This document shows, one piece after another, positions 6,966 through 21,798 of a stretch of DNA of 22,185 nucleotides (its first letter is position 1; every line of letters begins with the position of its first letter). The translations under genes and the position numbers were made by a program. Below the pieces are notes generated by a model that was not told where the DNA came from, did not search any database, and worked only from the letters and a program-made list of their open reading frames with translations. Location: the IMG/VR virus record IMGVR_UViG_3300028831_000378, positions 64,001 through 86,185 of that record; one strand, given 5' to 3'. Origin of the DNA: a virus.

Positions 6966-7019
6966 CCGCACACGACGCCGATAACTCTGTTATCATCGGG
7001 CTTACCCGAGCACGAGGAG
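6966..7019 (+). promoter_or_regulatory. Promoter/operator unit 1 (palindrome, CCCGAG box, RBS)
   Basis: GATAACTCTGTTATC at 6980-6994 is a perfect inverted repeat (6-bp arms, 3-base centre). TATCAT (6991-6996) is the likely -10 box and overlaps the right arm. The -35 is weak (CGCACA/GCACAC, 6967-6973). TCGGG (6996-7000), CTTA, CCCGA (7005-7009) form a second dyad, with the expected transcript start just before CCCGAG. GAGGAG (7014-7019) is the ribosome-binding site. Confidence 0.8.
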
Positions 7020-7025
7020 ATGGAG

Positions 7026-8462
7026 ATGGCGACGATGGCAACGGAGCGGCAGACAGCGGAGCAGGTCTACGGGATCCAGCGCGACCGCGATATGGCGTGG
7101 TCACGGCTTGCCGGCGCAGGCGACCCTGCCGTGCTGACCGGCGCCGAGCGCGCGCACTACCGCAGGCTGGAGACAGCGTTCGCTGCCGCCGACGAGCTGC
7201 TGCGCGAGGCGCGCGCGGAGATCGGTGGCCGCGTGTACCGCGTGCCCGACGAGAACCTGCACGGGCTGGAGCAGCGCGTCGCGAAGATCAACCGGCGCGC
7301 CGCGAAGCTCGACGTCGCGCCCGTCCACTTCGACGTCACGAGCGAGACGTGGGAGCTGGTGCGGCGCAGCGACACGACGGGCGAAGTGATCGAGGTCGTC
7401 CCGCACACGTTCGTCGTCGTCGGCGCGCAGGTCGTGAAGCTCGCCGGCTGGCAGTTCGCGGCCACGATCGAGCACGACGAGGAGGGCAACATCATCCGGC
7501 AGGTGCCCGGCGTTGAGGCCGATCTCTCCGAGTACCGGACGGCCGCGCCGTGGTGCTTTCACTGCCGTACGACGCGCCGGCGCATCGACACGTTCGTCGT
7601 GCTGCACGAGGACGGCCACACGGAGCAGGTCGGCCGGAACTGCCTCGTCGACTTTCTCGGGTCCAGCGCGAAGGGCGCGGCCGCGCAGGCGGAGTGGCTG
7701 CACGAGCTGATCGCGGCGCTGGAGGACGCGGAGGACGCCGGCGCCGCCGGCGCGCGCGGCGTCGCGACGTTCGGGCTGGAGGAGTTCCTGACGCACGTCG
7801 CGCTGGACATCCGCCGGAGCCGCTGGACGAGCCGCAGCCGGGCGCGCGAGTGGGGCGAGACGGCGACAGCCGATTGGGCGGCCGGGAACATGAACGAGTG
7901 CCGGAAGGCCGGCTACCGCGAGCCCGGCGTGGACGATCACTACACGCTGCCGACTGACGCTGACGCCGCGCAGGCGCGCGCCGCGATCGAGTGGGCACGC
8001 GAGACGTGGCTCGCGAAGCCGCTCGACGAGCGCGATGACTTCGAGCACAACATGGCCGTGGCGGTCGCGCACGACTACCTGCCTACGCGACGCACGGGGC
8101 TCGCGGCGTACGCGGTGCAGGGCTACCTGAAGACGATCGAGGAGCAGGTGCAGCGCGAGGCCGCCGCGACGTCGGAGTTCGTCGGGTCGGAGGGCGAGCG
8201 GCTGCGCGGCCTGCGGGTCAAGGTCGCGAAGGTCGTCGCCATCGCCGATCACTACAGCTTCGACGGTGGCACGAAGCCGCTCTTCGTCTTCGTTGACGCT
8301 GACGGGAACTCGCTGAAGTGGTTCGCGTCGAGTTGGGCGACGAAGCTGGAGCCCGGCGAGGAGTACCTGCTGACCGGGACGGTCAAGCGTCACGAGGACG
8401 ACGAGAAGTTCGGCAAGGCAACGATCATCACGCGATGCAAGGTGGAGGAGGCGAAGAGCTGA
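7026..8462 (+). CDS. Zinc-knuckle protein with C-terminal OB-fold-like domain
   Basis: 478 residues. ATG 7026 is preferred because GAGGAG (7014-7019) is 6 bases upstream. ATG 7020 touches the ribosome-binding site, and ATG 7035 is also possible. The N-terminal 100 residues are helical. Around C177-x2-C180 the sequence reads APWCFHCRTTRRRIDTFVVLHEDGHTEQVGRNCLVDFLG, adding C206, a putative zinc-binding module that I have seen in phage and plasmid proteins of unknown function. The C-terminal 80 residues (LRGLRVKVAKVVAIADHYSFDGGTKPLFVFVDADGNSLKWFASSWATKLEPGEEYLLTGTVKRHEDDEKFGKATIITRCKV, shown to indicate strands) look like an OB fold ending in the GTVK-H----G---T--TR-K signature. It is the first gene after promoter unit 1, so probably early and abundant. 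A nucleic-acid-binding role is inferred. Confidence 0.65.
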   Translation: MATMATERQTAEQVYGIQRDRDMAWSRLAGAGDPAVLTGAERAHYRRLETAFAAADELLREARAEIGGRVYRVPDENLHGLEQRVAKINRRAAKLDVAPVHFDVTSETWELVRRSDTTGEVIEVVPHTFVVVGAQVVKLAGWQFAATIEHDEEGNIIRQVPGVEADLSEYRTAAPWCFHCRTTRRRIDTFVVLHEDGHTEQVGRNCLVDFLGSSAKGAAAQAEWLHELIAALEDAEDAGAAGARGVATFGLEEFLTHVALDIRRSRWTSRSRAREWGETATADWAAGNMNECRKAGYREPGVDDHYTLPTDADAAQARAAIEWARETWLAKPLDERDDFEHNMAVAVAHDYLPTRRTGLAAYAVQGYLKTIEEQVQREAAATSEFVGSEGERLRGLRVKVAKVVAIADHYSFDGGTKPLFVFVDADGNSLKWFASSWATKLEPGEEYLLTGTVKRHEDDEKFGKATIITRCKVEEAKS

Positions 8463-8827
8463 TGGCGGGCGCGACGGAGGAGCGCGTGGCGGAGCAGGTA
8501 GCCGCCGCGTGCCGCAGGGCAGGACTACGGGTCGTCGGGCCGATCGACACGGCGACGGGGATGGTCGGCGCGGTCGTCGCGCATCCGTTCACGAGCGGAC
8601 GGCTCGACGAGCTGGACGAGACGATCTACCGCACGGTGCCCACGGGCCGCGAGCACACGCTCGTCGTGCTGCGCGACTCCGCGCCGGCGGTGCTCGTCGT
8701 GACGTGGTGGCAGGGCACGGATGCCTACTGCGAGGTGTGCTCTCACTACCACGGGGTCGACGAGCCGTGCTGGTGCCCGGAGTGCGGGCTGCCGGTGCCG
8801 TGCAAGGGCCGCGGAGGGTCGCACTGA
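8462..8827 (+). CDS. Unknown protein with C-terminal zinc-binding cysteines
   Basis: 121 residues, with the ATG sharing the A of the preceding TGA. The N-terminal 85 residues form a small alpha/beta domain (VAEQVAAACRRAGLRVVGPI, TGMVGAVVAHPF, REHTLVVLRD, AVLVVTWWQG). The C-terminus carries a cysteine cluster: C90-x2-C93, then H96/H98, then C103-x-C105-x2-C108 and C114. This would suit one or two zinc sites. No family recognised. It is second in the operon driven by promoter unit 1 and is followed by a further coupled gene. Small zinc proteins in phages are often nucleic-acid binding or anti-host factors, but nothing in the sequence decides this. Confidence 0.6.
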   Translation: MAGATEERVAEQVAAACRRAGLRVVGPIDTATGMVGAVVAHPFTSGRLDELDETIYRTVPTGREHTLVVLRDSAPAVLVVTWWQGTDAYCEVCSHYHGVDEPCWCPECGLPVPCKGRGGSH

Positions 8828-9102
8828 TGGGCGACACGGCAGACATCTACCGGCGCCATCTACGCGACCGGCCGATCCGCGGTCTGACGGACGAGGAGTT
8901 GCGCGCGCTGCTGACGATCGGCGATCACCTCGCGCTGTTCGAGGCGGGCCTGACGGAGACGCTGGGCGTGATCGTGGAGCTGGCGCAGGCGGAGGAGAGC
9001 GACCGGGTGCAGCAGGAGATGCTGGCACGGCGTCCGGAGACGGCGATCGACACGATCCGCTCCGCGATGAAGGAGTCCGACAGACGCCGGGGGGTGCAGT
9101 GA
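8827..9102 (+). CDS. Small helical protein of unknown function
   Basis: 91 residues coupled through TGATG to the gene before and after. The sequence is charged and should be nearly all helix: ADIYRRHLRDRPIRGLTDEELRALLTIGDHLALFEAGLTETLGVIVELAQAEESDRVQQEMLARR and a basic C-terminal tail (KESDRRRGVQ). No cysteine, no membrane segment and no recognised domain. The LTDEELRALL segment is a general helix-capping pattern, not a family signature. Coding is supported by conserved stop/start coupling on both sides and strong third-position G/C. A small DNA-associated or regulatory role is only a guess. Confidence 0.55.
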   Translation: MGDTADIYRRHLRDRPIRGLTDEELRALLTIGDHLALFEAGLTETLGVIVELAQAEESDRVQQEMLARRPETAIDTIRSAMKESDRRRGVQ

Positions 9103-9314
9103 TGCCGCGGCTCGCGAAGCTGGTGGGCGGCGTGTCGGGTGCGATGGGATCGGATCATCTGCCGGCGTCGGCGGTCGCGTCGATCGCGGTCGATCGCGGG
9201 CTGCGCGGAGGGTCGCTTGACGTCGTGCCGCTCGACGAGGCGCAGCTCGCGCAGGTCGTCGCGGATGGCGCGACGGTGCTCGCGCGGCTCGCGAAGGGCC
9301 GGGTGGCGTCGTGA
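9102..9314 (+). CDS. Short unknown protein
   Basis: 70 residues, ATG overlapping the preceding TGA by one base and stop overlapping the next GTG start by four bases (GTGA). The sequence runs MPRLAKLVGGVSGAMGSDHLPASAVASIAVDRG and then DVVPLDEAQLAQVVADGATVLARLAKGRVAS, with alternating hydrophobic residues but no membrane span. No family recognised. Its reality rests on the double overlap within an operon of similarly arranged genes. Confidence 0.5.
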   Translation: MPRLAKLVGGVSGAMGSDHLPASAVASIAVDRGLRGGSLDVVPLDEAQLAQVVADGATVLARLAKGRVAS

Positions 9315-9676
9315 GGATCACGGACGCGATGGTGCGTGACTTTCTCGTGTGGGCGCGCAACTACGGCGAGATCGAGCACTTCGAGCGGCTGGAGGGCGGC
9401 GGCCGCTGTTGGAAGATCACGCTGCCGGGCATCTGTCGGGCGCATGGCGGCGACGGGCCGCTGCTCGGCGAGTGGGGGGACGAGCCGCATCGCGTCGTGC
9501 CGCGCGAGTTCGTGCTGACGTCACGCGAGGCGTTCGCGTTTGGCTATGGCGTGGCGGTCGGCGGAGCGGCGGAACGGCGAAGCGAGTTCGCGGCGCGCGA
9601 GTGGAAGTGGGGCGTGGAGGAGCCCGAGGAGGAGCCCGAGCGGGCTCCCGGCGAGTTGGCGAAAGGCGGTGGGTGA
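9311..9676 (+). CDS. Unknown small protein
   Basis: 121 residues starting at a GTG that overlaps the upstream stop by four bases. The N-terminal half reads MRITDAMVRDFLVWARNYGEIEHFERLEGGGRCWKITLPGICRAHGGDGPLLGEWG. The middle has EPHRVVPREFVLTSREAFAFGYGVAVGGAAERRSEF, followed by an acidic Pro/Glu tail (EEPEEEPERAPGELAKGGG). It has two cysteines but no spaced metal-binding set. No family recognised. It is followed by another coupled gene. The composition is typical of soluble, single-domain phage accessory proteins. Confidence 0.55.
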   Translation: MRITDAMVRDFLVWARNYGEIEHFERLEGGGRCWKITLPGICRAHGGDGPLLGEWGDEPHRVVPREFVLTSREAFAFGYGVAVGGAAERRSEFAAREWKWGVEEPEEEPERAPGELAKGGG

Positions 9677-10029
9677 TGGCGAGCGCGGTGCGCGAGGTGC
9701 TGACGCAGGACGTGCTGAGTGCCGACCGCGAGTTCTGCGGCATCGCCGGCGACGCGCAGGGCGAGGCGCGGGTGCGCGCGGAGATGCGGCTGCTCGCGGA
9801 GTTGCCGGCCGGCTTCGAGATCGAGCGAACGAGCGTCAAGAATGGCGGCGGGCCGCGTGGCTTCGAGTTGGCGTTGGTCGACGCGCGTGCGCGCCCGCGC
9901 CGGCGGCTCGCCGCGGCGCACCGGCGCTACATCGGCCGGCCGATGGTGTCCTGGCAGAGCGCACCGGGGCTCGTCGGTCCGGACGCTGCTACCGCGTTTT
10001 CCGTGCTGCTGCGGCTCGCAGCGAGCTAG
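9676..10029 (+). CDS. Basic unknown protein, last gene of operon 1
   Basis: 117 residues from the ATG that shares a base with the preceding TGA. Recognisable parts are SADREFCGIAGDAQGEARVRAEMRLLAELPAGFEIERTSV, GGGPRGFELALVDARARPRRRLAAAHRRYIGRPMVSW and a short hydrophobic C-terminus DAATAFSVLLRLAAS. The middle stretch is strongly basic, which would suit nucleic-acid binding. No family recognised. The stop (10027-10029) lies in front of the degenerate promoter/operator unit 2, and no separate terminator is seen, so transcription may read on into the SSB operon. Confidence 0.5.
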   Translation: MASAVREVLTQDVLSADREFCGIAGDAQGEARVRAEMRLLAELPAGFEIERTSVKNGGGPRGFELALVDARARPRRRLAAAHRRYIGRPMVSWQSAPGLVGPDAATAFSVLLRLAAS

Positions 10030-10071
10030 GCATCGGCCGATCATCCGGTTATCGTGTGCCGCTATCCCGAG
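10027..10071 (+). promoter_or_regulatory. Promoter/operator unit 2 (degenerate)
   Basis: GATCATCCGGTTATC (10039-10053) matches the operator palindrome with several differences in the left arm and centre. TATCGT (10050-10055) is the -10 and TAGGCA (10027-10032) a possible -35 at 17 bp. CCCGAG lies at 10066-10071, 27 bases after the palindrome start. ATCGGCCGAT (10032-10041), itself a perfect palindrome, overlaps the left edge. The ribosome-binding site of the next gene is GAGGAGGAGG (10091-10100). Confidence 0.6.
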
Positions 10072-10105
10072 TATTGGTCGAATGATCGAAGAGGAGGAGG
10101 ACTAG

Positions 10106-10474
10106 ATGGCTGGTGCGATTGAGGAGCTGGTGGCTGCCGCTGCTGCGGTGCCAGAGGTGCCGGAGTCGGGCTCGGAGGCGCGGAAGGCCGCGCACGCGCG
10201 CCTGGAGGCTGCGGCGGCCGCGGTGCGCGCGGGCGGCTTCACGGTGGAGGACGTCGTGGCGGTGCTGAAGGCGCAGCCGCTCGTCGGCGTGAAGGCGGGG
10301 TCGATGATCCTGGGGCTGGCGCCGCCGAACTTCCGGCGCTACCGCGAGCGGCTGGCGGAGATCCCGGTGGAGGAGTCCGCATCGGTGTTCGTGCGCTCGC
10401 AGGTGGAGGGCCTGGCCGCCGATCTCGCGGTCGCGCGCGAGAGCCGCGGAGCGGGCGCGGAGGTGTCGGGCTGA
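10106..10474 (+). CDS. Helical unknown protein upstream of ssb
   Basis: 122 residues. The start is set by the strong purine-rich ribosome-binding site GAGGAGGAGG (10091-10100), 5 bases before ATG. The protein is alanine-rich and helical: IEELVAAAAAVPEVPESGSEARKAAHARLEAAAAAVRAGGFTVEDVVAVLKAQPLVGVKAGSMILGLAPPNFRRYRERLAEIPVEESASVFVRSQVEGLAADLAVARE. The GGFTVEDVVAVLKAQPLVGVKAGSMILGLAPPNFRRY part resembles a small helical DNA-binding arrangement, but I cannot name a family. It is first in the operon with ssb and the HerA-like ATPase and is coupled to ssb by TGATG, which suggests a DNA-metabolism partner. Confidence 0.6.
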   Translation: MAGAIEELVAAAAAVPEVPESGSEARKAAHARLEAAAAAVRAGGFTVEDVVAVLKAQPLVGVKAGSMILGLAPPNFRRYRERLAEIPVEESASVFVRSQVEGLAADLAVARESRGAGAEVSG

Positions 10475-10953
10475 TGGCCGCGACGAACATTAACCGTGTG
10501 GTGATGACGGGCAACCTGACGGCCGATCCGGATCTTCGGAACCTGCCGTCCGGGACGGCGGTCTGCAAGCTGCGGTTGGCGTGCAACACGCGCCGGAAGA
10601 ACGCGAGCGGGGAGTGGGTCGACAAGCCGAACTACTTCGACGTGACGGTGTGGGGCGCGCAGGGCGAGAACTGCGCGAAGTACCTGTCGAAGGGCCGGCC
10701 GGTCGCGGTGGACGGGCGCCTGGAGTGGCGCGAGTGGGAGTCGGAGGGTGGCGGCAAGCGGCAGGCCGTGGACATCGTGGCCGACTCCGTGCAGTTCCTC
10801 AACGCGCGCGGCGACGACGGCGGCAACTCGGGTGGCGGCGGGTTCACGCCGCGCCAGCAGTCCGACGTGCCATCGGATGCCGGTGGGATGGACTTCGCGC
10901 CGGCGGGTGGCGGGAACGTGCCGGCGCCGGCCGACGACGACATTCCGTTCTGA
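10474..10953 (+). CDS. ssb: Single-stranded DNA-binding protein
   Basis: 159 residues. It has the full OB-fold signature of bacterial-type SSB: INRVVMTGNLTADPDLRNLPSGTAVCKLRLACNTRRKN at the N-terminus, then KPNYFDVTVWGAQGENCAKYLSKGRPVAVDGRLEWREWESEGGGKRQAVDIVADSVQFL. A Gly-rich flexible linker follows (about residues 115-150), ending in the acidic tip DDDIPF, the tail used by SSBs to recruit repair and replication proteins. Length is normal for the family. It coats single-stranded DNA during phage replication or recombination. It is the second gene of the operon from promoter unit 2 and is coupled to both neighbours. Confidence 0.96.
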   Translation: MAATNINRVVMTGNLTADPDLRNLPSGTAVCKLRLACNTRRKNASGEWVDKPNYFDVTVWGAQGENCAKYLSKGRPVAVDGRLEWREWESEGGGKRQAVDIVADSVQFLNARGDDGGNSGGGGFTPRQQSDVPSDAGGMDFAPAGGGNVPAPADDDIPF

Positions 10954-11342
10954 TGGGCGAGCCCGAGCAGCGGCCGCTGTACGCCTATCTGTGGCGCGGT
11001 GGGCCGATCGTGTCGCGCCGCGAGGGTGGGGCCGTCCGTGCGCTGCTCGCGGCGCTCTCGCGGCGCAAGCCGGCGCGGCCGTGGCGCGCGCCGGCGGATG
11101 ATCCGTGGCGCGCGCTGCGATCGGTGGCGGACTTCGAGGAGTGCGCGCGCGCTGCGGCGCCGGTGGGCTCGCGGGTGCGGGTGCGGGCCGCGGCGAACGA
11201 TCCGAAGATGCCGCTGGGCGCGGTGGAGGTGCGGGTGCGTGGGCCGTGGCGCCGGCGGCTGACGAAGGCCGAGCGCGGCAGGGTGCACGCCGCGCTCGTC
11301 GAGCACGCGCCGGTGATGCTGAAGCTGGAGGTGAAGTCGTGA
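10953..11342 (+). CDS. Basic unknown protein between ssb and HerA-like gene
   Basis: 129 residues from the ATG sharing the A of the ssb stop. The open frame also runs upstream through ssb in another phase, which is a shadow. The protein is arginine-rich: YAYLWRGGPIVSRREGGAVRALLAALSRRKPARPWRAPADDPWRALRSVADFEECARAAAPVGSRVRVRAAANDPKMPLGAVEVRVRGPWRRRLTKAERGRVHAALVEHAPVMLKLEVKS. The RVRVRAAANDPKMPLGAVEVRVRG part suggests a short beta-sheet. High basicity suits DNA binding. No family recognised. It is tightly coupled to the ATPase gene that follows and may act with it. Confidence 0.55.
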   Translation: MGEPEQRPLYAYLWRGGPIVSRREGGAVRALLAALSRRKPARPWRAPADDPWRALRSVADFEECARAAAPVGSRVRVRAAANDPKMPLGAVEVRVRGPWRRRLTKAERGRVHAALVEHAPVMLKLEVKS

Positions 11343-13189: not shown

Positions 13190-13198
13190 CCTCCCGCC

Positions 13199-13247
13199 GA
13201 TCACTCTGTTATCATCGGGTGAGCCCGAGTTGATCTACCGAAGGAGC
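13199..13247 (+). promoter_or_regulatory. Promoter/operator unit 3 (drives ku)
   Basis: GATCACTCTGTTATC (13199-13213) is the operator palindrome with one arm base changed. TATCAT (13210-13215) is the -10. TCGGG (13215-13219), TGAG, CCCGA (13224-13228) form the second dyad. The leader then contains TTGATCTACC, an insertion relative to the other units, before GAAGGAG, which lies 9 bases upstream of the ATG at 13253. No convincing -35 is visible, so this copy may need an activator. Confidence 0.75.
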
Positions 13248-13252
13248 ATGAA

Positions 13253-14311
13253 ATGGCTGATGCAGCGAAGCGATCGAGCGCGAACACGCAGCTCTACATC
13301 GGAACTCTGAAGGCGTCGATCGGTCTGTTCAGCACGCGTGCTGACCCGGCGAAGACGGCGAAGTTCGACACGGCCGGCCCGAACGGCGGGCACCTGAAGT
13401 ACGAGCAGCGCGGCGTCGCGGTGCCGGTCGGCGAGGAGCCCGAGCAGGCGGGGCCGTCCGATCCGCTTGCGGGCACGCACGAGCTGGAGCGCGCCGCGCT
13501 CGCCGCTGCACACAAGGACGAAGACGACGCGTTCGAGCGCGAGTTCGGTGCGTTCGCGGGCGGGAGCTTCGCGGAGTTCGCGTCGGCGCCGCCGGCGGCG
13601 CCCGTCGAGCCCGGCGGCGTGCTGGTGGACGGCGAGTTCCGGCAGGTGCTCGTCGAGGAGGGCTCCGGCGAGATCGTCGAGGCCGGCGCGGTGCGGCGTG
13701 GCGTGCGTCGCGATGACGGCGCGTTCGTCGACTGCACCGATCAGCTCGACGCGATCGAGACGCGCACGAAGCTCGATCGGATGGAGATCGTGAAGTGCAT
13801 CGACGGGACGCGGATCCGGCGTGACCGCGTGATCGGCTCGTACTTCGTTGGCGCGCAGGACGGCGACGCGAAGGCGAAGCTGCGGCTGCTGTACGACGCG
13901 CTGCGCGAGCGCCGCGAAGTCGCGGTCGTGAAGTACACGACGCGTTCGCGCCAGCAGCTCGGCGTGATCGTTCCGAACGGGACGAACGGGACGCTCGTGC
14001 TGCTGACGCTGGTGTTCGCGGAGGACGTCCGCGAGGCGCCGTCGAAGGCGACGTCGATCCAGAAGGTGCAGATGCCGAAGGAGCAGGTGCTCGTGATGTG
14101 CAAGCTGCTCGCGGCCCTGCACGGGCACGTGGACGATCTCGACGCGCTGCGCGACGACGCGGTGGCGCTGCGCGAGGAGCTGATGGTGCGCGCGCTCGCC
14201 GGCGAGATGGATGCGAGCGTCGTCGAGCCGCTGCCGGCGCCGGAGGAGACGCCGGATCTCGCGGAGGCGCTGCACGCGTCGCTGGAGGCCGTGCGCGCCG
14301 GGAAGGTCTGA
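13253..14311 (+). CDS. ku: Phage-encoded Ku homologue (DNA double-strand-end binding)
   Basis: 352 residues against about 270-300 for bacterial Ku. The N-terminus (LYIGTLKASIGLFSTRADPAKTAKFDTAGPNGGHLKYEQRG, 14-54) follows the Ku pattern W-G-I--GLV--PV-LYSA-----RF------GG-I-Y. After an acidic, low-complexity stretch (about 55-145), Ku homology resumes: VRRGVRRDDGAFVDCTDQLDAIETRTKLDRMEIVKCID, then IGSYFVGAQ, KLRLLYDALRERREVAVVKYTTRSRQQLGVIVPNGTNGTLVLLTLVFAEDVRE, matching the YY-------AY-LL--AL and R-RE-L--I-P----L-L-TL---EDVR signatures. The inserted region replaces the usual V-C--CG segment. The C-terminus (about 263-352) is acidic and unlike the LigD-binding tail. It would bind DNA ends as a ring-shaped homodimer. 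No ligase D is in the window. Confidence 0.9.
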   Translation: MADAAKRSSANTQLYIGTLKASIGLFSTRADPAKTAKFDTAGPNGGHLKYEQRGVAVPVGEEPEQAGPSDPLAGTHELERAALAAAHKDEDDAFEREFGAFAGGSFAEFASAPPAAPVEPGGVLVDGEFRQVLVEEGSGEIVEAGAVRRGVRRDDGAFVDCTDQLDAIETRTKLDRMEIVKCIDGTRIRRDRVIGSYFVGAQDGDAKAKLRLLYDALRERREVAVVKYTTRSRQQLGVIVPNGTNGTLVLLTLVFAEDVREAPSKATSIQKVQMPKEQVLVMCKLLAALHGHVDDLDALRDDAVALREELMVRALAGEMDASVVEPLPAPEETPDLAEALHASLEAVRAGKV

Positions 14312-15346: not shown

Positions 15347-15582
15347 TGCCGTGGCCGGGCTCGACGTGCGAGCTGCGCGCGGAGTGGTGGGACGGGCCGC
15401 TGCCGGAGCCCGACGATTTTCTGAGGACCGCGACGGGGAGTTGCTACCGCATCGAAGGGGTGCGCGAGTGCGGCCCGGACGCGAAGGAGCGCGCGGTGTT
15501 CTCGTGTGTGCGGCTGGAGAAGAACGCGGTCGGCGAGGATGATCCGGGCGTGTATCCCTGGAGCTGGAGTCCGCGGAGTTGA
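15346..15582 (+). CDS. Small Trp/Cys-containing unknown protein
   Basis: 78 residues, ATG overlapping the preceding TAA (TAATG). The sequence is MPWPGSTCELRAEWWDGPLPEPDDFLRTATGSCYRIEGVRECGPDAKERAVFSCVRLEKNAVGEDDPGVYPWSWSPRS. It has four scattered cysteines, aromatic ends and predicted short beta-strands (SCYRIEGVREC, RAVFSCVRLEK), which suggest a small beta-barrel or SH3-like fold. I associate similar short proteins (W--G----P-DF-RT--GS-Y-I--V) with phage genomes in general, but know no function. The stop lies within the TTG start region of the next gene. Confidence 0.55.
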   Translation: MPWPGSTCELRAEWWDGPLPEPDDFLRTATGSCYRIEGVRECGPDAKERAVFSCVRLEKNAVGEDDPGVYPWSWSPRS

Positions 15583-16229
15583 CGCCGGCGCCGAAGAGCG
15601 GCCGTGCGTCGCGGCCGGCGCGTGCTCGCGCGAAGAGCACCGGCGGCGGCGCGAAGAAGGCCGACGCGGCAGCCAAGCGCGCGAAGGACGCCGGCGCGAC
15701 GGGGCCGCGGCTGCCGGCGGCTCGGCAGGCGCTCCGCGATTCGATGATCATCGCTCGGGCGGCGCAGGGGATGCCCTACGCGGTGATCGCGGCGGAGGCG
15801 AAGGTGTCCGTGCGGCAGGTCGAGCGGATCGTGGCGGGCAACCGTGGCGTGCGGTCGCCGCTGGAGGACACGCCGATGGAACTGCTCGACGAGCTGGCGG
15901 TGGGCTACCGGCTGGCGATCGGCGATTTCGAGGCGATGGCGTTGGCGTGGTTCGACACGAATCAGTCCGCGTCGCTGGGCGCGAAGAAGGCGGCCGACGA
16001 GTCGCGCGCTCGTCTCGCGACGCTGCTGGAGGTCGTCGGCAAGCTGCCGGAGAACATGGAGCTGTTCCGGTCGGAGGCGCAGATGCAGCGGATCGCGGAG
16101 ACGATGGCGCAGACGATGCGAGCTGTCGCTGATGGTGAGATGGATGCCGGCGCGGCGGTCGACGTCTTCGAGGAGCTGATCGGCCGTAAGCCGGCGCGTG
16201 TGATCGGAATCACGGAGAGAGCAGGTTGA
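15579..16229 (+). CDS. Helix-turn-helix DNA-binding protein with basic N-terminal tail
   Basis: 216 residues from a TTG that overlaps the preceding TGA by four bases (TTGA). A later start such as ATG 15744 would cut off the basic tail. Residues 1-45 are Ala/Lys/Arg-rich (SGRASRPARARAKSTGGGAKKADAAAKRAKDAG), like histone-type DNA-binding tails. Residues about 55-88 (MIIARAAQGMPYAVIAAEAKVSVRQVERIVAGNRG) form a helix-turn-helix. The rest is helical (GYRLAIGDFEAMALAWFDTNQSASLGAKKAADESRARLATLLEVVGKLPENMELFR), with a short acidic end. It could be a transcription regulator or a small-terminase-like protein. A large terminase is not nearby, so I favour a regulator. It is one of two candidates for the factor reading the repeated operators. 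Confidence 0.65.
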   Translation: MTPAPKSGRASRPARARAKSTGGGAKKADAAAKRAKDAGATGPRLPAARQALRDSMIIARAAQGMPYAVIAAEAKVSVRQVERIVAGNRGVRSPLEDTPMELLDELAVGYRLAIGDFEAMALAWFDTNQSASLGAKKAADESRARLATLLEVVGKLPENMELFRSEAQMQRIAETMAQTMRAVADGEMDAGAAVDVFEELIGRKPARVIGITERAG

Positions 16230-16237
16230 ACGCGTCC

Positions 16238-16255
16238 GGTCATTCGGTCATAGTG
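16238..16255 (+). promoter_or_regulatory. Possible degenerate promoter/operator unit
   Basis: The stretch GGTCATTCGGTCATAGT (16239-16255) aligns with the GATAAC-N3-GTTATC-AT unit, but with many differences. CATAGT (16250-16255) could be the -10. No CCCGAG box or good -35 is present, and no ribosome-binding site precedes the next gene. It is listed because it sits in the same place relative to a gene start as the other units, but it may be chance. Confidence 0.3.
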
Positions 16256-16268
16256 GTTACACCGATGG

Positions 16269-16484
16269 GTGATCCACGTGACTGCTGCTCCGACTCCTCA
16301 GACGCCGATCGAGGCGCGTTGCCCGTACTGTGAGGGTCCGCTGCTTGTGCAGCGGGCCGCGCCGGGCGATCCGTTGCTCCGCGTCGTGTGTGAGGACTGT
16401 GGCGTGGAGGCGATGATCTCCGCCGCGGTGATGCAGCCGATCCGGCTGGGGCCGGATCCGCGTGTTCTCGCGGACGCGGCGTAG
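16269..16484 (+). CDS. Zinc-ribbon peptide
   Basis: 71 residues from GTG 16269 (GTG 16278 is an alternative). The pattern C18-x2-C21 (RCPYCEGPLLVQ) and C41-x2-C44 (VVCEDCGVEAMI), separated by 19 residues, is a classical four-cysteine zinc ribbon. The sequence between contains a beta-turn (RAAPGDPLL) as expected. Short zinc ribbons of this kind are used in nucleic-acid or protein contacts. The gene lies between the HTH protein and the winged-helix protein and is monocistronic-looking, with no coupling to either. No Shine-Dalgarno sequence is visible, so the transcript may be nearly leaderless. Confidence 0.65.
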   Translation: MIHVTAAPTPQTPIEARCPYCEGPLLVQRAAPGDPLLRVVCEDCGVEAMISAAVMQPIRLGPDPRVLADAA

Positions 16485-16504
16485 CGTCCGGCGGGCCAGC
16501 GTGT

Positions 16505-16525
16505 GATAATCGGGTTATGCCCGAG
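16505..16525 (+). promoter_or_regulatory. Promoter unit 4, predicted leaderless
   Basis: GATAAT (16505-16510) aligns with the TATCAT -10 box of the other units and is followed directly by CGGG, a five-base gap and CCCGAG (16520-16525). The ATG (16517-16519) falls between the TCGGG and CCCGAG halves, 7 bases after the -10, so the transcript should begin at the start codon. There is no ribosome-binding site. No good -35 is seen. Confidence 0.55.
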
Positions 16526-17671
16526 TTGCCTGCTGTACTACGCCGGACACTGCCCGCGTTCGATCAAGCGGTGCTGACCGCGGCCGCGGAGGGCGGCCCG
16601 GATCTCGTTCGTAAGACGGTCGACGGGATCCGATCGCTGGAGCACGCGGAGGAGACGATCGCGCGTGTGCGTCGAAGCGCCGCGGTCGTGATCGAGCGCA
16701 CGCGCGAGCGCAACGGGACGCCGCGGGACGTCGTGATCGCCGCGCTGGAGGCCGCGGGCGTTCCGGCCGAAGAGGCTGGGACGATCCTCGCGGATGGTGA
16801 GGGCGCCGGCGAGGAGCGGATTCCCGAAGGGGAGCCTCCCCCGCTGCCGCCGGCGCCCGAACCGTCCGGCGTGACGGTGCCATCTTCGAGGGAGGAGCCC
16901 GTGAGTCCTGCGCCGCGGAACCGTCTGGAGGAGTCCCGCAAGCGGCGTGACCGGATCGTCGAGCTGCTGGAGGAGCGGCCACGGTCGATCAAGGCGCTGG
17001 CCGTCGAGTTGGGCGTGGACATCACGACGGTTCGCAACGCGCTCGGGCCGCTCGGGAGCGAGGGCCGTGCGATGGCGACGACGGAGCGCGCGTTCGACTG
17101 GCCGGGCGCCGTGCCGGGGAAGGGCCGGCCGTCCGTGGTCTGGGGAACGAAGGACTTCGCGCCGCCGCCGGACGACGAGCCCGACGAGGCGTTGCTCGCG
17201 CGGGCTGCTGTCACGAGCGCGCGGCTCGCCGATCGGCTCGCCGGCGTTACCGGCGACGAGCTGGGGCGCGCGCCGATCGTGGTCGGGCCGCTGGAGGTCG
17301 CCGGCGTCGTCGAGCGCCTGGGCGACGTGCAGGATCGTGTACCCGACGAGCCCGAGCCGCCGGCGGAGGTGCAGGATCTTGTCGTCCCGGATGCTCCGGC
17401 GGCTGAGCCGGTGCAGGATCTTGTAGAGCCGGCCGCGGCTCGTCGGCTGCTGGCGCGTTGCGCGGAGTCGCGTCGCGCGCACGCCGCGCTGGCGCAGGAG
17501 GTCGCGCAGCTCGCGGCGGAGATGGTGGAGGCCGCGGAGGGCGAGTTGCCGGAGGGGCTGCTGTGCGCCCGGTACCTCGCGGCGCTGCTGCGCCGGATCG
17601 AGGCGGGTGACACCTCGTCGGAGCTGCTGGACAGGTTCGAGCGCGTCGCCGGATTGCACGACGGCCGATAA
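16517..17671 (+). CDS. Winged-helix DNA-binding protein with 14-residue tandem repeats
   Basis: 384 residues. The first 95 residues are helical (VRKTVDGIRSLEHAEETIARVRRSAAVVIERTRERNGTPRDVVIAALEAAGVPAEEAG). After a Pro-rich linker (about 100-130) comes a winged helix at about 140-212: RRDRIVELLEERPRSIKALAVELGVDITTVRNALGPLGSEGRAMA, closed by a wing GRPSVVWGTKDF. At residues 271-304 the unit VQDxV recurs three times at exact 14-residue spacing. The C-terminus is helical (ARRLLARCAESRRAHAALAQEVAQLAAEMVEAAEGELPEG). It could be the regulator of the repeated operators, or a replication initiator-like protein. Its TAA stop (17669-17671) lies inside promoter/operator unit 5. Confidence 0.7.
   Translation: MPELPAVLRRTLPAFDQAVLTAAAEGGPDLVRKTVDGIRSLEHAEETIARVRRSAAVVIERTRERNGTPRDVVIAALEAAGVPAEEAGTILADGEGAGEERIPEGEPPPLPPAPEPSGVTVPSSREEPVSPAPRNRLEESRKRRDRIVELLEERPRSIKALAVELGVDITTVRNALGPLGSEGRAMATTERAFDWPGAVPGKGRPSVVWGTKDFAPPPDDEPDEALLARAAVTSARLADRLAGVTGDELGRAPIVVGPLEVAGVVERLGDVQDRVPDEPEPPAEVQDLVVPDAPAAEPVQDLVEPAAARRLLARCAESRRAHAALAQEVAQLAAEMVEAAEGELPEGLLCARYLAALLRRIEAGDTSSELLDRFERVAGLHDGR
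17327..17424 (+). repeat. 42-bp tandem repeat inside the winged-helix gene
   Basis: GTGCAGGATC plus KTGT occurs at 17327-17340, 17369-17382 and 17411-17424, exactly 42 bases apart. The frame is kept, giving a 14-residue periodicity (VQDRVPDEPEPPAE, VQDLVVPDAPAAEP, VQDLVEPAAARRLL). The bases between the 14-base cores are more diverged but keep a Pro/Glu-rich character. This looks like recent duplication of a flexible acidic linker, or a retained set of binding peptides. Confidence 0.75.
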
Positions 17672-17710
17672 CTCTGTTATCATCGCTCGCGTACCCGAGT
17701 TGAAGGAGCA
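17654..17710 (+). promoter_or_regulatory. Promoter/operator unit 5
   Basis: TTGCAC (17654-17659), 18-bp spacer, TATCAT (17678-17683). The palindrome GATAACTCTGTTATC is at 17667-17681, identical to unit 1. CCCGAG is at 17694-17699 and AAGGAG at 17703-17708. The stretch GTACCCGAGTTGAAGGAGCA (17691-17710) is identical to 18756-18775 in unit 6. The palindrome contains the stop codon of the upstream gene. Confidence 0.85.
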
Positions 17711-17714
17711 GGCA

Positions 17715-17954
17715 ATGTTCGAGGCGCTGGTGACGGAGTACCGGGCGATGGGCTACAGCGAGGCCGACGCGCGCGAGGAGGCTGCACGCGAGGTTCGCCT
17801 GACGACGGGCGACATCTACTTCGGTCGCTCGCCGGAGGAGCTGGAGGAGATGCAGCGCTCGGAGGCCGAGATGTACGAGGCGGTGCGTCGCTCCGCCGGC
17901 GCGTGCGACGAGTTCCCCAATGGAGAGTTCGCAGTCGCGGGCTACAACTGCTGA
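17715..17954 (+). CDS. Small acidic unknown protein
   Basis: 79 residues from ATG 17715, the first start after promoter unit 5 and its AAGGAG site (6-base spacer). The open frame begins far upstream but that part is not coding. The sequence is MFEALVTEYRAMGYSEADAREEAAREVRLTTGDIYFGRSPEELEEMQRSEAEMYEAVRRSAGACDEFPNGEFAVAGYNC. It is acidic and helical, with a cysteine at the very end. No family recognised. It is the first gene of a two-gene operon with the TGT-like protein, coupled by TGATG, so it may be a partner or modulator of that enzyme. Confidence 0.65.
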   Translation: MFEALVTEYRAMGYSEADAREEAAREVRLTTGDIYFGRSPEELEEMQRSEAEMYEAVRRSAGACDEFPNGEFAVAGYNC

Positions 17955-18721
17955 TGCGCCCGTCGAGCGAGCGCGTGGTGGGCGAGCATCTGCTGCTGGT
18001 GACGACAGCGTTCCCGTCGATGCACGAGCATCCGGGAGCGAACGGGCAGGCGATCCACCCGAATCTCGGGCGCCTGATCCAGCCGCGGCACACGTCGTCG
18101 ATCGAGAAGACGGAGGCCGCGGGGATCCCGTGGGCCGCGGACAACGACTGCTTTCAGGGGCTCGATCCGATCGCGTTCGAGCGGATGCTCGATCGGATCC
18201 GGCCGGTCGCGGGCAGCACCTACGATCCGGAGACGGGTGTCGTGACCGATCGCCGCGCGACGCGGCTGTGCAAGTTCGTCACGGTGCCGGATGTCGTCGC
18301 TGACGCGTACGCGACGGCGCAGCAGTTCGAGCGGTGGGCGCCGGCCGTCGAGCGTCGCGGCCTGCCGGTCGGGCTCGTGCTTCAGAACGGCATCGACCGC
18401 GCGTCGATGCGGAGGTGGCTGGATCGCACGTGGCATCGGCTCGACGCGGTGTTCGTCGGCGGTGACGACGATTTCAAGCTCGGGCCGATCGCGGCGGACG
18501 TCGCGCGTGAGGCGAAGAGCCGCGGGCTGTGGGTGCATTGGGGCCGCGTGAACTCGCGGACGCGGATGCGCTACTGCGTGTCGACGGGCGCGTGCGATTC
18601 GATGGACGGGTCGATGTGGGCGCGGTTCCGGAAGACGCATCTGGACAAGGGGCTGGGGTGGCTGTCGGAGATCCCGGTGGAGCGCGCGGCCGCGGCGGCG
18701 CAGATGACGCTCGTCGCCTAG
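17954..18721 (+). CDS. TGT/DpdA-like base-exchange (transglycosylase superfamily) protein
   Basis: 255 residues from ATG 17954 (the upstream frame is a shadow). The motif series is WAADNDCFQGLDPIAFERML (60-79), CKFVTVPDVVADAYATAQQFERW (106-128), GLVLQNGID (140-148), DAVFVGGDDDFKLG (164-177), GLWVHWGRVNSRTRMRYC (191-208) and GACDSMDGSMWARF (212-225). I know this series from phage proteins usually labelled queuine tRNA-ribosyltransferase-like. The TIM-barrel TGT superfamily swaps guanine for a 7-deazaguanine in tRNA (TGT) or in DNA (DpdA). The VPD aspartate and the DSMDGS segment are the most likely active-site regions, but that is inference. It is shorter than tRNA TGT (about 370 residues). 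No queuosine-precursor genes are in the window, so substrate is uncertain. Confidence 0.75.
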   Translation: MRPSSERVVGEHLLLVTTAFPSMHEHPGANGQAIHPNLGRLIQPRHTSSIEKTEAAGIPWAADNDCFQGLDPIAFERMLDRIRPVAGSTYDPETGVVTDRRATRLCKFVTVPDVVADAYATAQQFERWAPAVERRGLPVGLVLQNGIDRASMRRWLDRTWHRLDAVFVGGDDDFKLGPIAADVAREAKSRGLWVHWGRVNSRTRMRYCVSTGACDSMDGSMWARFRKTHLDKGLGWLSEIPVERAAAAAQMTLVA

Positions 18722-18775
18722 TTGACGCACGGACGATAACTCTGTTATCGTGGCTGTACCCGAGTTGAAGGAGCA
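18722..18775 (+). promoter_or_regulatory. Promoter/operator unit 6
   Basis: TTGACG (18722-18727), 18-bp spacer, TATCGT (18746-18751): the best sigma70-like pair in the window. The palindrome GATAACTCTGTTATC is at 18735-18749. A purine at 18758 is 7 bases after the -10, and CCCGAG starts at 18759. AAGGAG (18768-18773) precedes the ATG at 18780 by 6 bases. The TCGGG left half-box is absent here. Confidence 0.87.
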
Positions 18776-18779
18776 CAAG

Positions 18780-19109
18780 ATGGCCGGTCGGACGAACCTT
18801 GGAGAGCAGCGCCCGCCTCGCGAGTGGATGCGGACGGAGCGCGTGATCGTGACGCAGCGTAACGCGGCGGAGCAGATCGAGCGCGAGATCGAGATCGAGC
18901 GCACGTGGCAGGGCGACGAGGTGCGGCAGACGACGGTGCGCGTGACGGGCTACGACACGCTGACGTCTGAGGCGCACGAGCCGCGCGCGATGGTGACGGA
19001 CATGGCGCGCGTGCTGATCGCGGAGGCCGAGCAGCGCGGGATGCTGACGCGGCCGGGAATCACGACGTCGCAGCGGGCGCGCGCTCGCGCGGAGAGGGGT
19101 GCGTGCTGA
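18780..19109 (+). CDS. Unknown protein, first gene of operon 6
   Basis: 109 residues. ATG 18780 is preferred over the upstream GTG in the same frame because it follows the AAGGAG site of promoter unit 6. The sequence is basic and beta-rich: REWMRTERVIVTQRNAAEQIEREIEIERTWQGDEVRQTTVRVTGYDTLTSEAHEPRAMVTDMARVLIAEAEQRGMLTRPGITTSQRARARAERGAC. The central part (VRVTGYDTLTSEAH) has regular strand spacing, and a long helix follows. The C-terminal tail is arginine-rich. No family recognised. It begins a run of seven coupled genes with no other promoter motif between them. Confidence 0.6.
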   Translation: MAGRTNLGEQRPPREWMRTERVIVTQRNAAEQIEREIEIERTWQGDEVRQTTVRVTGYDTLTSEAHEPRAMVTDMARVLIAEAEQRGMLTRPGITTSQRARARAERGAC

Positions 19110-19693
19110 TGGGCGCGCTGAAGCCGAAGACATGGGGCGCAGTGGAGGGTCTGCTGCGCCGCGCGAACCGGATCGGGCTCGTGATCCGCGTCGATGGCGG
19201 CATCGCCGAGCTGTGGTACGAGGAGCGCGACGGGGACAAGCCGTACGAGGAGCGCGCGATGGGCGGCCGGTGGCAGGTCGACGTGTCGTCGATCGTCGGC
19301 GACGCACCGGATCCGGACGCCGCGAAGGTGGTCCTGGCCGGCAGCACGCGCTTCACGGTGCCGTCGTGGTATGGCGACGCGGAGATCGACGGGAAGCGCG
19401 AGTGGGCGACGTTCGACGAGGCTGTCGCGGCGGCGCGCTCGACGATCGTGCGGTTCGAGTATCCGGGGCAGACGCCGGATCATCGCTACTCGACGGCGTG
19501 TGTCGCGCTGCGCACGGAGTGGCGCGACGCGCCGCAGGGCGCCGGGCTCGGGTCGGACTCCGAGCTGATGCGGTGGACGGTCACGCAGTCGCGGGTGATC
19601 GTGTGCCCGCTCGGGCGTGGGCTGGCGGCCGAGCAGGTCGCGGCCGCGGAGGCGTTGCCGGACTCGAAGGCACGGAAGGCGGGGTGGGCGTGA
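19109..19693 (+). CDS. Unknown protein
   Basis: 194 residues. ATG 19109 follows the local TGATG coupling style. GTG 19103, in frame and better spaced from GGAGAGG (19091-19097), is an equally possible start. The protein reads KTWGAVEGLLRRANRIGLVIRVDGGIAELWYEERDGDKPYEERAMGGRWQVDVSSIVGDAPDPDAAKVVLAGSTRFTVPSWYGDAEIDGKREWATFDEAVAAARSTIVRFEYPGQTPDHRYSTACVALRTEWRDAPQGAGLGSDSELMRWTVTQSRVIVCPLGRG. Strands and turns alternate, and it looks like one compact soluble domain. No motif that I can tie to a family. Function unknown. Confidence 0.6.
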   Translation: MGALKPKTWGAVEGLLRRANRIGLVIRVDGGIAELWYEERDGDKPYEERAMGGRWQVDVSSIVGDAPDPDAAKVVLAGSTRFTVPSWYGDAEIDGKREWATFDEAVAAARSTIVRFEYPGQTPDHRYSTACVALRTEWRDAPQGAGLGSDSELMRWTVTQSRVIVCPLGRGLAAEQVAAAEALPDSKARKAGWA

Positions 19694-20016
19694 TGCCGGC
19701 CGATCGCGAAGAGCACGTGTACGACGTCGAAGTCGTCGTCGATCGGGCGCGTGGGATGAAGGTCGCCGCGCTGAAGGACGCGGCGCGCGCGACGTACGAG
19801 GTGGCCGGCCGGACGTACCCGCAGTATCCGGACATCGCGGCGTTCTCGGCACTTGTCGTCGGCGGTGCGGTGGAAATGACGTTCGAGCTGCGGCAGGACT
19901 CATCGAACATGAGCGGCGCGGCGGTGCGCGCGTTGACGATCGGCACGATGCTCGTCGAGCGTGCGGGCTACGGTTCGGAGCCGGACGTGCTGCGGTTGAA
20001 GGTGGAGGTGGCGTGA
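19693..20016 (+). CDS. Unknown small protein
   Basis: 107 residues from the ATG overlapping the preceding TGA. The sequence is MPADREEHVYDVEVVVDRARGMKVAALKDAARATYEVAGRTYPQYPDIAAFSALVVGGAVEMTFELRQDSSNMSGAAVRALTIGTMLVERAGYGSEPDVLRLKVEVA. It opens with a beta-strand followed by a helix, and the last third also reads as helix then strand. There is no cysteine, membrane span or known signature. The frame is supported by coupling at both ends and consistent third-position G/C. Confidence 0.55.
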   Translation: MPADREEHVYDVEVVVDRARGMKVAALKDAARATYEVAGRTYPQYPDIAAFSALVVGGAVEMTFELRQDSSNMSGAAVRALTIGTMLVERAGYGSEPDVLRLKVEVA

Positions 20017-20300
20017 TGGCCGGCCCGGTCGTGGTGATCGAGCGCATCGCGGAGCCGCTGGCCGGCGGTCGCGCGCAGCTCGTCGAGTACGTGTTCGAGG
20101 ATGGCGTGCAGGACGCGGCGGCGACGTGCCGGCGCGGCTCGCCGGCGGCGATGGCGGTCGTGCGCGAGCACGAGGAGACGCTGACGATCGACGACGATGG
20201 GATCCGGGTGCGTCGGATGCGGCCGCTGCGCAGCGACGCGACGCGTTCGTCGGGCGCTCGTCGGCGGAGCGCGGCGCGGCGCGCAGGGAGGCGGTCGTGA
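20016..20300 (+). CDS. Unknown protein with Arg-rich C-terminus
   Basis: 94 residues from the ATG overlapping the preceding TGA. The first 70 residues are a small beta-rich region (VVVIERIAEPLAGGRAQLVEYVFEDGVQDAAATCRRGSPAAMAVVREHEETLTIDDDGIRVRRM). The last 25 are Arg/Ser/Ala-rich (RSDATRSSGARRRSAARRAGRRS), typical of a disordered nucleic-acid-binding tail. The upstream extension of the frame is a shadow. No family recognised. Confidence 0.5.
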   Translation: MAGPVVVIERIAEPLAGGRAQLVEYVFEDGVQDAAATCRRGSPAAMAVVREHEETLTIDDDGIRVRRMRPLRSDATRSSGARRRSAARRAGRRS

Positions 20301-20914
20301 TGGTCGACGAGGAGACGCGTGTGCCGACGCTGGAGGAGATGGCGCAGGCGATCGACGCGAAGCGCCGCGAGCGTGAGACGGCGCTCGCGCGGCTCGCGGA
20401 GCTGACGCCGGCGTACGACGAGGCGCGCGAGCGTACGCGGCAACTCGCGAAGGAGCTGAAGGAGATGGAGCGCGCGATGGGCGGCGCGCAGCAGGCGCAC
20501 GCGATCGAGCGTGCGCTCGCCGAGGCCGGGATCGAGTTCGAGGGGCCGCGGCTGGTGCCGGTGCGGGAGTACAGCGGGCATCGGTGGTACGTGCTCGCGG
20601 CGGTCGGGCCGAAGGGCACGGGGCTCTATCTCCACACGCCGGATCGCAGCGGCCGCTACAGCGGCAAGTCGTGGGCGGTGCTTCGCGAGCGGGCGCTCAC
20701 GCAGGGCTTCGACCCGGACGCGCCGAGGGGCAACCGTCACGATCTGACGCAGAAGTCGCAGGAGGACGCGGGGCTGCTGGCGTGGCAGGCGCGTGGCAAA
20801 GGCGACTTCGGCTTCAGCGGGGCGTTCCGGCCGACTGCGCCGCCGGAGGGTGGGAAGTGGCGATGGCTGAAGGTGCGCGAGCAGGAGTCTCTGGCGAAGG
20901 GCGAGGTGGCGTGA
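20300..20914 (+). CDS. Coiled-coil protein with C-terminal soluble domain
   Basis: 204 residues from the ATG overlapping the preceding TGA. Residues about 10-65 (LEEMAQAIDAKRRERETALARLAELTPAYDEARERTRQLAKELKEMERAMGG) show heptad spacing and should form a long coiled coil. The rest has a compact, aromatic-rich domain: HRWYVLAAVGPKGTGLYLHTPDRSGRYSGKSWAVLRERALTQGFDPDAPRGNRHDLTQKSQEDAGLLAWQARGKGDFGFSGAFRPTAPPEGGKWRWLKVREQESLAKGEVA. No family is recognised. The coiled coil suggests a dimer. It is the fifth gene in the operon from promoter unit 6. Confidence 0.6.
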   Translation: MVDEETRVPTLEEMAQAIDAKRRERETALARLAELTPAYDEARERTRQLAKELKEMERAMGGAQQAHAIERALAEAGIEFEGPRLVPVREYSGHRWYVLAAVGPKGTGLYLHTPDRSGRYSGKSWAVLRERALTQGFDPDAPRGNRHDLTQKSQEDAGLLAWQARGKGDFGFSGAFRPTAPPEGGKWRWLKVREQESLAKGEVA

Positions 20915-21177
20915 TGGTGATGGAGGACAGGTCGAGCAACATCGACTTTCAGGACTGCGACGAGTGCGCGGAGGAGTCGGGCTCCGGCGTCTGCGCGAAC
21001 TGCGAGGCGGATGGCGGCTACTGCCCGGACGAGCCTCCGGGCTGCGGCGGGAGCGGCCGGTGCTGTTACTGCGAGGGCACCGGGCGCGTCCGGATCGAAG
21101 TGGATCCGGCCTACCGGGCGGAGGTCGAAGCTGCCGGCCCGCTCGTCGACCCGTCGACCGTAGAGGGTGGCGAGTGA
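20914..21177 (+). CDS. Cys-rich zinc-finger protein (DnaJ-type CxxCxGxG)
   Basis: 87 residues from the ATG overlapping the preceding TGA. Nine cysteines lie in residues 15-53: C15-x2-C18, C27-x2-C30, C37, C44, and C50/C51-Y-C53-E-G-T-G. The last is the CxxCxGxG repeat of DnaJ-type zinc fingers. This spacing could bind two zinc ions. The remaining C-terminal part is short and acidic. Small phage proteins with such repeats are often annotated as DnaJ-like zinc fingers, but here there is no J domain. A role as a protein- or DNA-contacting adaptor is inferred. Confidence 0.65.
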   Translation: MVMEDRSSNIDFQDCDECAEESGSGVCANCEADGGYCPDEPPGCGGSGRCCYCEGTGRVRIEVDPAYRAEVEAAGPLVDPSTVEGGE

Positions 21178-21647
21178 TGGGCGAGCTGATGCGAGACGTC
21201 AAGCGCGCGGCGTATGACGCGAAGGTGGGTGAGCTGAAGGGTTCGCCGGGCGTGATGGAGGGCCGGCGGCTGCGGTTCGTGTCGGCGCGTGGTGGCGCGG
21301 GGTACGACGTCGTTGCGGTGGGCGCGGGGATGGACGGCGGGCCGATGGAGGTGGCGCTCGGGTTCGTGCGCCGTGAGGTCGCTTCGACGGACTCGCGGAT
21401 CGCGGGGACGCGTCTGCGCCGGCCGGGCAAGGGCCGCACGGTGTGGCGTGCGGAGGCGCCGCGCGATGAGGCGTCCGCAGTCGGCGGTGGCGGCGCGCGC
21501 CAGCTCGTGCAGCGCGGCCTGAGCGAGCGGACACTCGACGTCGCGTGGAGCGGCTGGGACTACCAGACGCGCGGCGAGGCCGCGGAGGTGCTGGTGGAGT
21601 GGCACGATCATCCGGAGCGCCGGCGCGGGCCGGCGACGGGCCGGTAA
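21177..21647 (+). CDS. Unknown protein, last gene of operon 6
   Basis: 156 residues from the ATG overlapping the preceding TGA. The protein starts with a helix (MGELMRDVKRAAYDAKVGELKG) and continues with glycine-rich strands (RRLRFVSARGGAGYDVVAVGAGMDGGPMEVALGFVRREVASTDSRIAGTRLRRPGKGRTVWRAEAP). It ends in an acid/base-mixed helix and the segment DVAWSGWDYQTRGEAAEVLVEWHDHPER. A WD-rich stretch is present, but I see no WD-repeat or other known domain. The TAA stop is followed by 157 bases with no gene, two hairpins and promoter unit 7. Confidence 0.5.
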   Translation: MGELMRDVKRAAYDAKVGELKGSPGVMEGRRLRFVSARGGAGYDVVAVGAGMDGGPMEVALGFVRREVASTDSRIAGTRLRRPGKGRTVWRAEAPRDEASAVGGGGARQLVQRGLSERTLDVAWSGWDYQTRGEAAEVLVEWHDHPERRRGPATGR

Positions 21648-21678
21648 CGAGCTTGGGCGCCGGTTGGCGCGCGCAGAG

Positions 21679-21698
21679 TCTCAGCTCGGGTGCTGAGA
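21679..21698 (+). other. Small hairpin in the 157-base gap
   Basis: TCTCAGC (21679-21685), loop TCGGGT, GCTGAGA (21692-21698) gives a 7-bp stem. The loop sequence TCGGGT matches the half-box found at 21775-21780 in promoter unit 7. It could be part of the RNA 3' end or a second binding element. The gap 21648-21804 has no supportable coding frame. Confidence 0.4.
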
Positions 21699-21701
21699 AC
21701 C

Positions 21702-21733
21702 GCGGCCGGTCCTGTGCTCCCGGGGCCGGCCGC
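21702..21733 (+). terminator. Hairpin terminator candidate
   Basis: GCGGCCGGTCC (21702-21712), a 10-base loop, then GGGCCGGCCGC (21723-21733): 11 bp with one G-T wobble. It is followed by CTTCTATGTC-like sequence with only a weak T content (TTCTAT). Location just after the last gene of operon 6 and just before promoter unit 7 supports a terminator role. Confidence 0.65.
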
Positions 21734-21746
21734 TTCTATGTCCGGG

Positions 21747-21798
21747 TTGCACGCCGATGATCACTCCGTTATCATCGGGTCTACCCGAGCACGAGGAG
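21747..21798 (+). promoter_or_regulatory. Promoter/operator unit 7
   Basis: TTGCAC (21747-21752), 17-bp spacer, TATCAT (21770-21775). The palindrome GATCACTCCGTTATC is at 21759-21773. TCGGG (21775-21779), TCTA, CCCGA (21784-21788) follow. TACCCGAGCACGAGGAG (21782-21798) is identical to 7003-7019 in unit 1. GAGGAG precedes the GTG at 21805. Confidence 0.85.

Follow-up and report, generated by a model that had tools for sequence, protein, structure and literature searches.

Dispersed palindromic promoter-like units with a CCCGAG leader in an IMG/VR phage genome and two relatives

The locus and its genome

The stretch of viral DNA considered here (the window, 22,185 nucleotides (nt)) comprises bases 64001-86185 of the IMG/VR record IMGVR_UViG_3300028831_000378, i.e., the end of the record, and a window position equals the record position minus 64000. 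It carries repeated copies of a palindrome, GATAAC-N3-GTTATC, which overlaps a TATCAT or TATCGT -10 box ahead of genes and is followed by the hexamer CCCGAG; this combination is referred to below as the unit. The initial annotation had placed five such palindromes at 6980, 13199, 17667, 18735, and 21759 and proposed them as a set of five jointly switched promoters. All five are present at these coordinates, those at 6980, 17667, and 18735 being exact copies of GATAACTCTGTTATC and those at 13199 and 21759 differing by one mismatch each from GATAACNNNGTTATC. The overlap with the -10 box is exact, and the distance from the palindrome start to the start codon is 45-54 nt. The -35-like hexamers that had been named are confirmed at 17667 (TTGCAC, 18 nt), 18735 (TTGACG, 18 nt), and 21759 (TTGCAC, 17 nt), but the -35 is weak at the other copies in the window and in most copies of the family, above all in the relatives. 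With up to three mismatches allowed, 10 matches lie in the window where 1.48 would be expected, and the largest number in 100 shuffles was 5. Overlooked at first were a diverged sixth copy at 10039, a degenerate copy at 16505, the CCCGAG after every copy, and seven copies elsewhere in the genome (Table 1).

The record has 86,185 base pairs (bp), and its first 139 bases recur at offset 86046 as a direct terminal repeat, so it looks complete. It has a G+C content of 71%, and 143 genes were called with the authors' own gene caller (the source of all gene starts given here), with 94% of the sequence coding. Genes for tail sheath, baseplate, head protease, and terminase identify a myovirus, and the G+C content together with a protein related to mIHF points to a host that is probably actinobacterial. 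Two relatives were found in IMG/VR, namely IMGVR_UViG_3300044899_000017 (77,780 bp; G001) and IMGVR_UViG_3300015089_000001 (28,959 bp; G002), and dozens of proteins are common to the record and these relatives at ~35-87% identity. The comparison set thus consists of three genomes, one of them partial, with 193 kb in all.

Table 1. Units of the studied record and helix-turn-helix (HTH) proteins of the window, with the elements of each unit and the genes that follow
Feature	Window coordinates	Record position	Strand	Elements	Gene downstream or remark
Unit	6980-7010	70980	+	GATAACTCTGTTATCAT 6980-6996; CCCGAG 7005-7010	Gene 7026-8462
Unit	10039-10071	74039	+	GATCATCCGGTTATCGT 10039-10055; CCCGAG 10066-10071	Gene 10106-10474
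Unit	13199-13229	77199	+	GATCACTCTGTTATCAT 13199-13215; CCCGAG 13224-13229	Ku-like gene 13253-14311
HTH protein, 216 aa	15579-16229		+		Conserved in G001, 53% identical; candidate regulator
Degenerate unit	16505-16525		+	GATAAT -10-like hexamer 16505-16510; ATG 16517; CCCGAG 16520-16525	Palindrome broken; score 13.1
HTH_11-like protein	16517-17671		+		Without homologue in G001
Unit	17667-17699	81667	+	TTGCAC -35-like; GATAACTCTGTTATCAT 17667-17683; CCCGAG 17694-17699	Genes 17715-17954 and 17954-18721
Unit	18735-18764	82735	+	TTGACG -35; GATAACTCTGTTATCGT 18735-18751; CCCGAG 18759-18764	Gene 18780-19109
Unit	21759-21789	85759	+	TTGCAC -35-like; GATCACTCCGTTATCAT 21759-21775; CCCGAG 21784-21789	GTG-start gene 21805, running off the contig end
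Unit		569
Unit		14754
Unit		18149
Unit		22096
Unit		32541
Unit		49979
Unit		62919	-		137-aa open reading frame on the minus strand

A genome-wide family with a conserved anatomy

The palindrome GATMACTCYGTTATC with its overlapping TATCRT -10 box occupies 13 promoter-like positions in the studied record, nine in G001, and three in G002. The dispersed, intergenic family of one orientation that had been described is therefore real, and its size in the genome is 13 rather than five. All 25 units are intergenic or overlap just the last bases of the preceding gene, as had been claimed for the window, and every one is oriented toward the next gene. The open reading frame faced by the unit at 62919 (L011 2499-2912, where L011 2912 is record 62912) had not been chosen by the gene caller.

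The 17-base core of the unit reads GAT(A/C)A(C/T)TC(T/C)GTTATC(G/A)T. GAT, TATC, and the T at position 17 are invariant in the 25 copies, while A5, G10, and T11 are kept in 23-24 of them. Within this core lies a dyad of 15 bp over the -10 box, composed of 6-bp arms and a 3-nt centre, and the arms match on average at 5.2 of six positions. A TATCNT -10 box is overlapped in every copy, and this agrees with the actinobacterial -10 form TANNNT. The GAT of the left arm lies outside the core promoter and is absent from other promoter-like sites of the same phages, so it would need another reader, most simply a dimeric protein. A generic sigma-70 scan picks up only the unit at 18735, because the scan demands a good -35, and an Rfam search of the window gave no match.

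Conservation and statistical tests

The matrix scan proposed in the initial annotation was run with a matrix built from G001 and G002 only. The 13 units of the studied record score 15.9-34.1 with it, and all are intergenic and carry CCCGAG, while the best match inside a gene reaches 15.0, below every unit. With a matrix from all 25 sites, no match reached a score of at least 20 in 60 dinucleotide-shuffled versions of the genome, and the only site of the real sequences that reaches this score without being a unit is the palindrome at 82735 read backwards.

Seven unit positions of the studied record and G001 are paired through an orthologous gene at or near the operon start, and an eighth pair (70980 and 54104) is matched by position alone; three positions are shared with G002. 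The core of paired positions is on average 83% identical, against 33% in the 40-nt flank. In the window, the units at 10039, 17667, and 18735 have G001 counterparts at 55215, 61696, and 62630, the last with a 100% identical core, and the unit at 13199 has an orthologous one ahead of the G001 Ku gene (57809).

Outside these genomes the full unit does not rise above the chance level. A scan of IMG/VR beyond the window's own record matched the full-unit pattern in G001 and G002 only, and no paper of the literature library that was searched contains the palindrome string. In 84,980 genomes there were nine scattered single matches, about the number estimated for chance, and none was in a named actinobacterium. 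This result bears on the idea that the dyad binds a host regulator exploited by the phage, so that early genes would respond to the state of the host. The lack of a conserved phage regulator that could be assigned speaks for such borrowing, and the chance-level count speaks against it, although the pattern included the leader and leaves room for host sites made of the dyad only; overall, the explanation appears rather improbable.

The CCCGAG leader

The second motif, CCCGAG, stands 7-11 nt (once 17) 3' of the -10 box in 25 of 25 units, a count to be read with the fact that the motif served partly as a criterion for collecting them. It usually occurs as TACCCGAG, with the A in 22 and the T in 17 of the copies. 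Its spacing from the -10 box varies little (standard deviation 2.0), whereas the distance to the start codon is 16-40 nt (mode 21, standard deviation 5.7), and the motif is thus tied more to the promoter than to the start codon. Ordinary Shine-Dalgarno sequences are present in the leaders besides it.

A search starting from the leader (TANNNT-N5-10-A-CCCGAG) across the three genomes gave 24 matches, of which 23 are intergenic, 21 are palindrome units, and one is inside a gene. As the palindrome and leader-first searches converge, each half of the unit leads to the other. Two intergenic promoter-like sites, G001 63814 and G002 23436, carry CCCGAG but no arm, which makes arm and leader separable, and since the leader is also present at promoters without the palindrome it may define a regulon of its own that overlaps with the first. 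A more speculative extension is control in two layers, in which the operator at the -10 box would be joined by a CCCGAG tag at the 5' end, read by a phage or host factor that selects early mRNAs for translation, stability, or shut-off.

Proposed mechanism

With somewhat better than even confidence, the units are read as early promoters that share one dyad operator over the -10 box, are probably repressed together by a dimeric regulator, and carry a leader element in addition. Each unit would be an early (non-virion) promoter of the actinobacterial SigA type, with a weak or partial -35 and a strong TATCRT -10. The RNA start is predicted at the A directly before CCCGAG, which would place the 15-bp dyad at about -24 to -9. 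A dimeric protein binding there would compete with RNA polymerase, and about a dozen operons could be turned down together, whether at a later stage of infection or in a carrier state. CCCGAG, at the predicted 5' end of the mRNA, would form a module apart from the dyad, with a role of its own, perhaps in translation or mRNA control. Directly seen are the sequence, placement, orientation, and conservation of the units, their overlap with the -10 box, and the separability of the leader; promoter activity, RNA start, dimer binding, and repression are inferred, and one regulator probably switches these genes together.

The predicted RNA start also bears on whether a hairpin in the RNA, or base composition by chance, accounts for the palindrome. 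In about half of the copies, CCCGAG is also preceded by GGG or CGGG, which could form a small stem. On the other hand, RNA synthesis is predicted to start downstream of both arms, and the shuffled genomes gave no site at the score cited above. Moreover, the left-arm changes GATCAC, GATCAT, and GATAGC occur without compensation in the right arm, on which ground a hairpin formed by the palindrome was rejected. Taken as a whole, this explanation has very little probability.

Several points weigh against repression by a shared regulator. No regulator candidate could be tied to the dyad. No HTH_3 protein passes the cut-off in the three records, neither a tyrosine integrase nor a serine recombinase was found there, and resolvase families are absent or below the cut-off, so a lysogeny repressor is not supported. 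In addition, the dyad could serve an activator, or belong to a promoter that a phage-modified RNA polymerase recognises, and would then switch the promoters on. The weak -35 of most copies fits this alternative, as such promoters possibly need help, but weak -35 boxes are common in actinobacterial promoters as well. Furthermore, the dyad takes in four bases of the -10 box, the usual place for a repressor, and no phage sigma factor or polymerase was found among the commonest families, which are those that the family searches list. Overall, activation is judged unlikely.

Candidate regulators

Two HTH proteins encoded at 15579 and 16517 had been put forward for binding tests with the palindrome. 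The HTH_11-like protein at 16517 is not the shared regulator of the family, because G001 keeps the units but has no homologue of it. The protein at 15579 stays a candidate by its conservation in G001, and nothing links it to the palindrome. It matches Pfam HTH_28/HTH_23 below the cut-off and phrog_836 with an E-value of 1.4e-6; its structure model is a low-confidence fold (predicted local distance difference test (pLDDT) 56), and alignment of the HTH against PDB returned insignificant LacI/GntR matches only. It could be something else, e.g., a small terminase subunit. The structure model of the 18202-family protein reached a pLDDT of 63, and both models are of too low quality to support a fold comparison.

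Genes downstream of the units and genomic context

Most copies precede early or DNA-metabolism genes, where "early" is deduced from gene content. Units stand ahead of the Ku-like gene, of RecT (record 50037), with exonuclease, helicase loader, and RusA genes downstream of it, and of many early genes of no known function, and in G001 a unit precedes a DNA polymerase exonuclease subunit. The virion blocks (~26-49.8 kb and 63.4-70.3 kb) hold a single unit, 32541, which sits at a rearrangement junction relative to G001. This is the old junction of a translocation, seen in the different placement of the head-gene block in the two genomes (record 63446-70268 and G001 22961-29245). Terminator-like hairpins are found directly ahead of at least the units at record 22096, 70980 (window ~6924-6949), and 85759 (window stem 21702-21733), as expected for separate transcription units. 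Near-identical copies of one hairpin, GGGCCGTCCTTCGGGGCGGCCC, lie upstream of two units, at window 6924-6949 and record 22031-22095.

The Ku-like DNA end-binding protein (Pfam Ku, E-value 9e-18) is conserved in G001 and has its own unit. The phage-encoded relative of mIHF/sIHF is present in all three phages (record 21258-21590, i.e., L009 1258-1590; G001 10724-11050; G002 19374-19715), with E-values of 3e-11 to mIHF 6tob and 7.6e-5 to 4itq and a Pfam H2TH_5 assignment, and in G001 and G002 a unit directly follows its gene. A reversed module on the minus strand (record 58355-62912), with the unit at 62919 ahead of it, encodes an FtsK/SpoIIIE-like protein and a protein with a weak NucA/NucB-like match, and no counterpart to its genes was found in G001. 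TANNNT boxes within ~7 nt of the start codon (record 63446 and 47026; G001 75327; G002 27220) suggest leaderless mRNAs, and the degenerate unit at 16505 may drive another. For the terminases of G001 and G002, translation may begin at an in-frame ATG that precedes the called start.

Among 50,697 phage records, the portal-like, Ku-like, HTH, and mIHF-like proteins found no match, and the terminase and the protein at 7020 found distant matches only. Searches with the portal-like and H2TH proteins matched no cultured phage, a head-protein alignment searched against genomes revealed no prophage, and no relatives in viral contigs came from related-locus searches seeded with the Ku-like protein and with the 694-aa protein at 11105.

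Comparison with known phage systems

The units had been compared with the stoperators and start-associated sequences (SAS) of mycobacteriophages. The second comparison holds, the closer match being the extended form (ESAS), whereas stoperators fit poorly, as every copy found is at a promoter-like site. Cluster K mycobacteriophages have intergenic ESAS of 46-47 bp with a SigA-like promoter and inverted repeats, as well as SAS at start codons, and their authors considered that a repressor, whose identity was not known to them, may bind ESAS (PMC11373665; PMC3203893). Both systems consist of many near-identical intergenic copies of one orientation, mainly upstream of non-virion genes, in which a SigA-like promoter with an inverted repeat over its elements is followed by a second conserved leader motif, and neither has an assigned regulator. 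In contrast, the ESAS arms are 15-17 bp long, imperfect, and spaced, and span both -35 and -10 (Adephagia sequence), whereas the 15-bp dyad covers the -10 only. The 13-bp SAS GGGATAGGAGCCC is only a few nt away from the start codon and overlaps the ribosome site; it is absent here, and CCCGAG instead marks the predicted RNA start, 16-40 nt ahead of the start codon. Over the 34.6 kb of Adephagia compared, there was no sequence similarity to the units and no dyad match.

In phiC31, conserved inverted repeats are bound by the phiC31 c repressor. The phiC31 sequence (AJ006589) repeats CTACTCACGTGAGTAG around the early region, and both phages, one of an actinobacterial host and the other probably so, thus have many copies of a nearly unchanged palindrome in their early regions; this comparison covers the palindrome only. 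The palindromes differ in sequence and length, and the repressor and integrase known in phiC31 are not seen here.

The cluster A (L5) stoperators are asymmetric, 13 bp long, and recognised by a monomer (PMC9283540), and more than 20 such sites of one orientation serve one repressor. If the units worked like them, a bound repressor would block elongation as well as initiation, and their dispersed, intergenic placement in one orientation relative to transcription would suit this. However, stoperators are partly away from promoters, while the core here is a dyad and each copy overlaps a -10 box, so stoperator-like action is very hard to credit. The units resemble ESAS/SAS and phiC31 operators in kind, but neither their sequence nor their geometry places them with either system; both are new, as is the lineage.

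Significance

In cluster K mycobacteriophages, the regulator and the leader function of the operator-promoter plus leader-motif design are unsolved, and the units add another example of this design, unrelated to the first. Being compact, a unit can be tried on a reporter in a laboratory actinobacterium, with no need for the phage. Since the copies hardly differ and persist in distant relatives, a single binding assay or 5'-end map would reveal much about the control of the whole early gene set.

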